A DNA stretch of 16,280 nucleotides from a bacterium. Its GTDB lineage: Bacteria > Thermosulfidibacterota > Thermosulfidibacteria > Thermosulfidibacterales > JALWSI01. The DNA lies in assembly GCA_027080315.1 (NCBI GenBank), contig JALWSI010000166.1:1-16280 (forward strand), given 5' to 3'. A program made the translations under genes and the position numbers. Below the pieces are notes generated by a model. That model was not told where the DNA came from and ran no database searches. It was given only the letters and a program-made list of their open reading frames with translations. This document shows, one piece after another, positions 5,546 to 7,462 of the stretch (position 1 is the first letter of the stretch; each line of letters starts with the position of its first letter).

Positions 5546-5561
5546 AGCAACTATCGTGCCA
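5546..5561 (-). promoter_or_regulatory. Sigma54 (RpoN) promoter for amt2-GATase-glnA
   Basis: The - strand reads TGGCACGATAGTTGCT, a full match to the -24/-12 consensus TGGCACG-N4-TTGCW with GG and GC the right distance apart. Transcription should start near 5536, giving a leader of about 98 nt. Sigma54 promoters need an AAA+ activator; the NifA-type gene at 7682-9250 is the obvious candidate. Confidence 0.93.
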
Positions 5562-5598
5562 CCATACGGAGGTCTACGCCTAACCGTCTGTAAAATAG

Positions 5599-5630
5599 GG
5601 GATTAACTGAGATGACCCCTTATTAATCCC
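5599..5630. repeat. Inverted repeat upstream of the amt2 sigma54 promoter
   Basis: GGGATTAA (5599-5606) and TTAATCCC (5623-5630) are perfect 8-bp arms around a 16-nt spacer, centred about 55 bp upstream of the -24 box. It could be an activator or repressor site. It could also be a terminator stem for amt1, since the - strand continues CTATTTTAC. Confidence 0.45.
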
Positions 5631-5677
5631 ACCTTTTTAGCCAACCATCTCCTACATTCTGGTAGTTTGACCACCAA

Positions 5678-5699
5678 ATCCTCCACGACGTGGTAGGAT
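5678..5699. repeat. Inverted repeat between amt1 and amt2
   Basis: ATCCT-CCACG (5678-5687), a central A, then CGTGG-T-AGGAT (5689-5699) form 10-bp arms with one bulged T. The CCACG/CGTGG core is perfect. Its centre is about 130 bp upstream of the -24 box, a usual distance for an enhancer site. It lies 33 bp after the amt1 stop, so a terminator or 3'-end stem is also possible, though the following T-run is poor. Confidence 0.45.
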
Positions 5700-5732
5700 A
5701 AAACCAATGGCTGGCTAAATGGATAAAGATCA

Positions 5733-6941
5733 TTAAATCTTGTATCCCTCTTCTCCGTGAAGCTCCAAATCCAGACCAACCTGCTCCACATCAGACTCAA
5801 CCCTCAGACCCATAACTGCATCAAGCACCTTAAGTATCACAAAGGTGAGCACAAAAGCGTAAACCACGCTAACCCCTGATGCCAGAAGCTGCTTGCCAAA
5901 TTGAGAAGCAGAGCCCGTGAAGAGCCCCTTTGCTCCCACAGTAGCGACCAATCCTGTGGCTAAGGCGCCCCATAGCCCCCCAATGCCGTGTACTCCAAAG
6001 GCGTCTAAGGAATCATCGTAACCAAGCTTAAACTTGGCAATTACCGCTCCAAAGCATATCACCGACACAGTCATGCCAATAAAGAGGGCCCCTGGCAGGG
6101 TTACGAATCCAGCAGCGGGGGTGATTGCAACCAGACCGGCTACGAGGCCTGAGCAAAAACCAATGGCGCTGGCCTTACCGTGGTGAAGGTATTCAAGCAT
6201 TATCCAGACCACTGCCGCGGCCGCCGCTGCAACGTGGGTGTTCACAAAAGCAAGGGCAGAGAGCTTTCCCGCAGTAAGGGCGCTTCCAGCGTTGAAACCA
6301 AACCATCCAAACCATAAAAGTCCAGCTCCTATGGCGGTTAAGACCACACTGTTGGGCATTATGGGCTCTCTAAGAAAGCTCCTTCTTCTTCCCAACACCA
6401 GTGCAGCGGCCAAGGCCGACATCCCTGCGCTTATGTGAACAACCGTTCCACCAGCAAAATCCAAGGCTCCCAGCTGAGCCAACCAGCCTCCGTTACCCCA
6501 TACCCAGTGACATATGGGATCGTAAACCAAGGTTGACCAGAGCAGCACAAAAACCACATAGGTAGAGAACTTCATCCTCTCAACTATGGCCCCAGAGACA
6601 AGGGCAGGGGTGATTATGGCAAACATCATCTGAAAGGCCATAAATGCCAAATGGGGCACCGTGGGAGCGTAAATAGAGCTGGGCTCCATGCCCACCCCTT
6701 TCAGAAAAGCGTAGTTCAGTCCTCCAATAATGTGGTGAATGTCTCCTCCAAAAGAGAGAGAATATCCTATGATCACCCACTGGAGGGTTATAACTCCAAG
6801 GGTTACTAAACTCATCATTAAGGTGTTTAGAACGTTCCTGCTTCTAACCATACCGCCGTAGAAGAAGGCCAACCCTGGAGTCATAAGCATCACCAGGGCA
6901 GTTGAAACAAGCAGCCATGTGGTATCTGCGCCATTAACCAT
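5733..6941 (-). CDS. amt: Ammonium transporter, Amt/MEP/Rh family (first copy)
   Basis: A 402-aa inner-membrane ammonium channel. FYGGMVRSRNVLN, DPICHWVWG, Asp161 (LDFAGG), pore histidines His169 (VVHISAG) and His318 (FGVHGIGG), and WFGWFGFNAGSAL are all intact, so it should be functional. ATG 6941 has AAAGGAG upstream. It starts 48 bases after the glnB stop and shares the sigma54 promoter at 7447-7462. The glnB-amt pair is a classic arrangement in which PII plugs the channel through its T-loop when nitrogen is plentiful. The C-tail ends in DLELHGEEGYKI, matching the PII-contact region of the family. The reason for having two channels cannot be read from the sequence. Confidence 0.97.
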   Translation of the reverse strand: MVNGADTTWLLVSTALVMLMTPGLAFFYGGMVRSRNVLNTLMMSLVTLGVITLQWVIIGYSLSFGGDIHHIIGGLNYAFLKGVGMEPSSIYAPTVPHLAFMAFQMMFAIITPALVSGAIVERMKFSTYVVFVLLWSTLVYDPICHWVWGNGGWLAQLGALDFAGGTVVHISAGMSALAAALVLGRRRSFLREPIMPNSVVLTAIGAGLLWFGWFGFNAGSALTAGKLSALAFVNTHVAAAAAAVVWIMLEYLHHGKASAIGFCSGLVAGLVAITPAAGFVTLPGALFIGMTVSVICFGAVIAKFKLGYDDSLDAFGVHGIGGLWGALATGLVATVGAKGLFTGSASQFGKQLLASGVSVVYAFVLTFVILKVLDAVMGLRVESDVEQVGLDLELHGEEGYKI

Positions 6942-6989
6942 GATCCTCTCCTTTCATACCTTTTGGTAGGGTTATTTTTGGGGCTCCAC

Positions 6990-7328
6990 CTAAACGATAT
7001 CTTCTCCCCGCTCTCCCGTGCGAATACGTATAGAGTCCACCACCTCGGTGATAAAAATCTTGCCATCCCCTATCTTCCCTGTGCGTGCAGCCTTGCACAG
7101 GCAATCTACAACTTCTGAAACCTGATCTTCGGGAACCACCACATCAACCTTCACCTTGGGTAGAAAGTCCACTACATACTCGGCACCCCTATAGAACTCG
7201 CTATGTCCTTTCTGCCTTCCAAATCCCTTGACCTCGGTCACTGTCATTCCCTGTACCCCGATCTCCTTCAAAGCGTCCTTAACCTCGTCCACCTTAAAGG
7301 GTTTAATTATGGCCTCTACCTTCTTCAT
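6990..7328 (-). CDS. glnB: Nitrogen regulatory protein PII
   Basis: A 112-aa cytosolic trimer subunit that senses 2-oxoglutarate, ATP and ADP and signals nitrogen status to Amt channels and other targets. It has the family's full length and opens [20 protein letters not shown]. The T-loop is [17 protein letters not shown] with Tyr46 and Tyr51; Tyr51 is the uridylylation site in GlnD-containing bacteria. [10 protein letters not shown] (83-92) is the nucleotide-binding B-loop signature, followed by [13 protein letters not shown]. Linkage to amt could suggest the name glnK, and the sequence alone does not separate the two well. ATG has AAAGGAG upstream. It is the first gene of a sigma54-driven unit with amt1, with a leader of about 109 nt carrying a 16-bp palindrome. 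Confidence 0.96.
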
Positions 7329-7400
7329 AAATCCACTCCTTTCTACTTATCAGTATTATATTTTGAAAATTATACCTTTACGACCTAATAAATACGAATT

Positions 7401-7416
7401 TGAACTTTAAAGTTCA
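7401..7416. promoter_or_regulatory. Perfect 16-bp palindrome in the glnB leader
   Basis: TGAACTTTAAAGTTCA is its own reverse complement. It lies about 21-36 nt after the inferred sigma54 start site and about 73 bp before glnB. It could be an operator for a dimeric repressor or an RNA stem of 6 bp with loop TTAA. Two TATAAT hexamers (- strand, 7355-7360 and 7369-7374) lie just downstream, so a second, sigma70-type promoter controlled at this palindrome is possible, although no good -35 box is visible. Confidence 0.6.
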
Positions 7417-7446
7417 CCTTATAACCAATTTCCACTCTACTGAAAG

Positions 7447-7462
7447 AGCAACAAGCGTGCCA
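7447..7462 (-). promoter_or_regulatory. Sigma54 (RpoN) promoter for glnB-amt1
   Basis: The - strand reads TGGCACGCTTGTTGCT, a full match to TGGCACG-N4-TTGCW, with the same core as the amt2 promoter. Transcription should start near 7437, giving a leader of about 109 nt before glnB. Confidence 0.94.

Follow-up and report, generated by a model that had tools for sequence, protein, structure and literature searches.

A NifA-family activator likely to control adjacent ammonium uptake and assimilation operons through two sigma54 promoters in a member of the Thermosulfidibacterales

Genes of the ammonium-assimilation type are usually controlled by NtrC in Proteobacteria. A NifA-like activator of Aquifex aeolicus was reportedly described by Studholme et al. 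in 2000 (cited in PMC12316311). The Aquifex NifA-like protein AQ_218 is reported to bind DNA approximately 100 bp ahead of glnBA, although its genome has no nitrogenase. Among single-component activators, the GAFTGA-containing DVU1949 of Desulfovibrio vulgaris has nine predicted operons of nitrogen metabolism and transport, including DVU1231–1233 (PMC4641369). Binding upstream of the promoter, assembly into a ring and the ATP-driven opening of sigma54–RNA polymerase are established for this class of proteins (PMC9866876).

In this study, we analysed a stretch of 16,280 nucleotides (the window; contig JALWSI010000166.1 of assembly GCA_027080315.1) in which a gene for a NifA-family protein lies beside two blocks of ammonium genes, each with its own sigma54 promoter. 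The assembly comprises 1.84 Mb in 253 contigs and is 94% complete. The protein, its promoters and a candidate operator were compared with those of relatives in other genomes, and the explanations that compete for this arrangement are weighed below.

The regulator, its neighbours and the sigma54 promoters

The regulator gene (positions 7682–9250, minus strand) encodes a sigma54 activator of 522 amino acids with a GAF domain, an AAA+ domain containing the GAFTGA loop and Walker A, and a Fis-type helix–turn–helix (HTH) whose recognition helix reads TERMMGIR. Gene order and domain content (GAF-AAA-HTH_8) agree with the initial annotation, which had placed a GAF-AAA-Fis regulator upstream of both blocks on the same strand. 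With 581.6 bits, the protein lies above the cut-off of the NifA equivalog TIGR01817 (528.85); it falls short of NtrC membership (362.6 versus 558.6 bits), and a GAF domain stands where the receiver domain would be. A NifA-type cysteine cluster was not found in the regulator, which has only Cys132, Cys265 and Cys431. The NifA-type label first given to it stands for the domains and the NifA cut-off but not for the phylogenetic position, since the protein falls outside the classical proteobacterial NifA clade, and its operator probably differs from that of classical NifA.

On the same strand, the first block contains glnB (6990–7328; Pfam P-II), encoding a PII protein with Tyr51 at the uridylylation position, and the ammonium transporter gene amt1 (5733–6941; TIGR00836, 463.5 bits, cut-off 343.3). 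The second contains a further ammonium transporter gene, amt2 (4208–5437; TIGR00836, 467.4 bits), a gene for a class I glutamine amidotransferase (GATase; 3519–4199; Pfam PF00117, 70.2 bits) and glnA (2058–3470; TIGR00653, 666.5 bits, cut-off 429.15), encoding a type I glutamine synthetase. As the gaps within the blocks are just 8–48 bp, each block is probably a single operon. The GATase gene lies between amt2 and glnA; the related locus L141 likewise has one, between two amt genes. Because GlnB keeps Tyr51 and a GlnD over the cut-off is encoded elsewhere in the genome, PII uridylylation is plausible in this bacterium. Three further PII genes are present besides the glnB of the window, and the single rpoN gene over the cut-off also lies outside it; with rpoN, glnD and these PII genes elsewhere, to call the unit self-contained, as had been done, was too strong.

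Each block is preceded by an exact TGGCACG-N4-TTGCT on the minus strand, at 7447–7462 for glnB-amt1 (TGGCACGCTTGTTGCT) and at 5546–5561 for amt2-GATase-glnA (TGGCACGATAGTTGCT), as had been read initially. Both are sigma54 promoters with GG and GC elements at the standard spacing and with the extended consensus; simple base counting predicts approximately 0.004 exact matches for 16.3 kb when the two strands are taken together. A genome-wide search, as had been proposed, returned three exact matches in 1.84 Mb, two of which are those of the window, and the reversed pattern, used as a control on the whole genome, gave none. The third copy lies 28 bp upstream of genes reading as flgF/flgG, and a site with one mismatch lies approximately 49 bp upstream of a gene reading as flgB. 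Flagellar genes are textbook sigma54 targets. The strong sigma54 promoters of the genome thus appear to be the two in the window and the flagellar ones. A looser pattern gave eight sites in the whole genome, several of them within or distant from genes. Sigma70-type promoters in the region were no more numerous than in shuffled sequences, and a terminator-like hairpin at 7453–7480, which overlaps the glnB promoter, was taken as a chance feature.

The searches for nif and ntrC genes suggested by the initial annotation were carried out on this 94% complete assembly, and neither a nifH (best 23.7 versus 394.35 bits) nor an NtrC over the cut-off was detected; given that completeness, either could sit in an assembly gap. 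Five proteins of the genome strongly match the sigma54-interaction domain, and all but the regulator of the window belong to the response regulators. C33 and C22 are without GAFTGA and so probably cannot activate sigma54. The other two, C206 and C105, carry it, and C105 is paired with a histidine kinase. Against the NtrC cut-off of 558.6 bits, C105 scores 391.3 and C206 416.9, the best in the genome and a lower bound, as its gene ends at a contig edge. At loci L013 and L014, two response regulators have a sigma54-interaction domain but no GAFTGA, and one of them is NtrX-like.

A candidate operator upstream of both promoters

Comparison of the upstream regions gave a common dyad, TCCTAC-N6-GTAGGA, with the core CTAC-N6-GTAG. 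On the minus strand, a candidate activator-binding dyad with a perfect core lies at 5649–5668, 88 bp upstream of the amt2 promoter (15.1 bits by the combined position weight matrix, PWM), and another lies at 7582–7601, 120 bp upstream of the glnB promoter (14.7 bits). Both are accompanied by a weak second copy on that strand: ATCCTACCACGTCGTGGAGG at 5680–5699, 31 bp upstream of the 5649 dyad, has one mismatch in the core and scores 3.3 bits, and a half-match at 7612–7631 lies 30 bp farther upstream than the 7582 dyad. These weak copies match the 30–32 bp spacing of the tandem dyads at four related loci (L025, L028, L135 and L137). Before the start codon of the activator itself there is a weak and doubtful dyad (9262–9281, minus strand, 7.3 bits); in relatives, strong dyads stand 21–55 bp from the activator start, which suggests that the activators there are autoregulated.

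The combined matrix was built from 14 sites, all from other genomes, and ranks the window sites at 6953 (17.9), 5649 (15.1) and 7582 (14.7), the next scoring 9.5; the best score elsewhere in the same genome is 12.3, in 168 kb of other sequence. The motif was first spotted by comparing regions of the window with L135–L137, and to that extent the combined matrix falls short of being blind. A Spirochaete-only matrix, made of sites found once the motif had already been defined, places 5649 first and 7582 second in the window, and reduces but does not remove this lack of blindness. Under a Markov null, four sites per Mb score at least 14.7; with approximately seven chance sites per genome thus expected at the score of the glnB dyad, the case for that dyad comes from its position more than from its strength. 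A search of the whole genome allowing two mismatches found no enrichment (53 sites versus 92 in the reversed control), so that the dyad by itself defines no wider regulon, and three of the seven best among the 50 two-mismatch matches listed fall in the window.

The top-scoring dyad of the window, at 6953–6972, lies in the gap between glnB and amt1, where 11 bp separate it from the downstream start codon of amt1, and has no adjoining sigma54 promoter. It may be a chance match or a downstream site, or it may have an effect on amt1.

Distribution of the regulator, its recognition helix and the dyad

None of the eight further genomes from this order that we examined (G001–G008) contains a full-length match to the regulator (best E ~1e-95), nor does any of them have nifH over the cut-off; at their glnA loci, where the regulator is absent, no dyad was found (best 5.7). 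Full-length relatives with 70–75% identity occur in genomes of other groups. This distribution, with no full-length match in the eight others examined from its order and relatives of about 75% identity elsewhere, points to horizontal gain or repeated loss.

In the neighbourhoods of relatives, three loci with 70–75% identity stand out: the gene order is NifA-GlnB-Amt-GlnA at L135, Amt follows NifA at L136, and at L137 the next gene is GlnA, accompanied by a sigma54 site; L028 and L042 have NifA, a sigma54 site, Amt and GlnB in this order; and at L141, where the identity is 49%, NifA is followed by GlnA-Amt-GATase-Amt. The NifA gene adjoins Amt and GlnB in named genomes of both Spirochaetota and Verrucomicrobiota. 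At L034 (4099–13092), from a member of the Desulfovibrionaceae, a relative with 57% identity to the regulator precedes genes resembling glnN and gltB; a link to the DVU1949 regulon is possible there. No nifH over the cut-off occurs in seven of the eight genomes of the nearest relatives (G047, G022, G082, G055, G052, G096 and G028), the exception being G030. The gene is over the cut-off in G030, G098, G099 and G104, and most genomes that hold a relative are without it.

A tree of 46 proteins puts the regulator in a clade of 13 rows (support 99/95), which consists of all 12 rows with an ER-type helix plus L033 and spans Spirochaetota, Bacteroidota, Verrucomicrobiota and Thermodesulfobacteriota. 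A branch with 99/97 support splits this clade from proteobacterial NifA. Dyad carriers have in common the recognition helix [TS]ERxxG[LIT]R, where classical NifA has TPRQIAYR or similar. A dyad is found near the activator gene at six of 11 ER-helix loci and at two of 31 others (Fisher p = 0.002, an optimistic value, as related rows were counted separately); the remaining five ER-helix loci have no close dyad at the activator gene. Relatives with other helices (for example TERIIGYK and TQRQLGYK), among them L138, L139 and L141, have no strong dyad near the activator, or a weaker or different one. The comparison suggests that further operator types exist among related proteins with other recognition helices.

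In Labilibacter marinus (L031, position 4435), nifH and a divergently oriented gene are separated by a region that contains a dyad and, on the nifH side of it, a TGGCAC-like element. Since this dyad stands before nifH, the ER-helix clade may serve nif genes too; no dyad was found before the nif genes of G098, G099, G100, G104 or G030, which leaves L031 as the one locus that carries the nif link. We give even chances to the proposal that a NifA-annotated clade crossing several phyla uses a [TS]ERxxG[LIT]R helix to recognize an operator of its own, TCCTAC-N6-GTAGGA, and that it controls ammonium genes in genomes without nitrogenase and perhaps nif genes in some diazotrophs. If so, nitrogen activators would form a wider family in which classical NifA is a single specialized branch, and in many cases a NifA annotation would give a wrong impression of nitrogen fixation.

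Proposed control, rival explanations and known systems

On these comparisons, we consider it likely that in this non-diazotroph a NifA-like one-component activator switches on the adjacent ammonium uptake and assimilation operons through the two sigma54 promoters. The activator, made just upstream, would bind the TCCTAC-N6-GTAGGA dyads approximately 90–120 bp upstream of each promoter and assemble into an AAA+ ring, whose GAFTGA loop, with ATP, would open sigma54–RNA polymerase at both. Nitrogen limitation would in this way raise the levels of PII, the two ammonium transporters, the glutamine amidotransferase and the glutamine synthetase. We infer the binding, the activation and nitrogen limitation as the signal, and likewise the input of the GAF domain, which might sense PII, a ligand or the two together; the PII protein encoded by the neighbouring glnB would be an attractive candidate. 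The link between regulator and targets, drawn by inference in the initial annotation, gains support from the conserved neighbourhoods, from the dyads found at both promoters with matrices from other genomes, from the absence of nifH and NtrC over the cut-off, and from the fact that neither a full-length regulator nor, at glnA, the dyad was found in the other genomes examined from the order.

Both promoters might instead be activated by an NtrC-type response regulator encoded elsewhere, the NifA-like protein having other targets. NtrC is generally known as the controller of such genes in Proteobacteria, and C206 and C105, the latter with its histidine kinase, are two GAFTGA activators besides the regulator. 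However, both score below the NtrC cut-off (C206 from a truncated gene), no NtrC-like site with fewer than five mismatches lies upstream of either promoter, the flagellar sigma54 promoters need an activator too, and the dyad tracks the NifA-like clade across phyla; we regard this explanation as unlikely. It is decidedly improbable that the protein is a classical NifA, a remnant of or serving nitrogen fixation, with the nif genes either lost or absent from the assembled sequence. The regulator does pass the NifA cut-off, and the dyad before nifH at L031 means that members of its clade may serve nif; against this, nifH over the cut-off is absent from this genome and the eight others examined from the order and from seven of the eight nearest-relative genomes, the well supported branch sets the regulator apart from proteobacterial NifA, and no canonical NifA site (TGT-N10-ACA) occurs in 5562–5732 or 7463–7681, upstream of the promoters, or in 9251–9371. 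A last possibility, genuine promoters accompanied by dyads that are chance matches and by a regulator that is a mere neighbour, seems to us very hard to credit: the two-mismatch motif is indeed not enriched in the genome and the second dyads are weak at both promoters, but the positions of the main dyads at both promoters, their recovery by a matrix from other phyla, the tandem spacing and the co-variation of the dyad with the recognition helix all speak against it.

Genes annotated as NifA are often read as evidence that an organism fixes nitrogen, and the name alone is unsafe evidence, because the cut-off is passed here without a detectable nifH and most genomes of the nearest relatives are also without one. 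The candidate operator and the helix signature together would allow the regulons of this clade to be predicted from sequence across several phyla, and the dyads offer short stretches of DNA on which binding can be tested directly. In a search with little coverage of subscription journals, we found no published description of this pairing of dyad and helix.

By its published description, DVU1949 is, like the regulator, a single-component activator predicted to control nitrogen operons; unlike the regulator, it is linked to distant operons, and no conserved sigma54 promoter lies near it (PMC4641369). Proteobacterial NifA has in common with the regulator the domain order, GAFTGA and a score over the NifA cut-off, whereas the regulator belongs to another clade, has another recognition helix, is encoded in a genome without detected nifH, and has neither a TGT-N10-ACA site at its predicted targets nor the NifA-type cysteine cluster. 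The NtrBC system regulates the same kinds of genes, also through sigma54; the regulator, however, carries a GAF domain instead of the receiver domain, and its genome has no NtrC over the cut-off. The NifA-like activators Nlh1 and Nlh2 of A. aeolicus (structures 4g3k and 4g3v) are GAF-AAA-HTH proteins, as is the regulator, and the Nlh1 GAF domain is the best solved match to its GAF domain (E 1.5e-30); in the best solved match to its DNA-binding domain, 2m8g, the helix reads TLRQLDYR in place of TERMMGIR. With DVU1949 and the Aquifex NifA-like protein as precedents, the arrangement is less exceptional than it was initially taken to be, and NifA-like control of ammonium assimilation is a known kind of arrangement.
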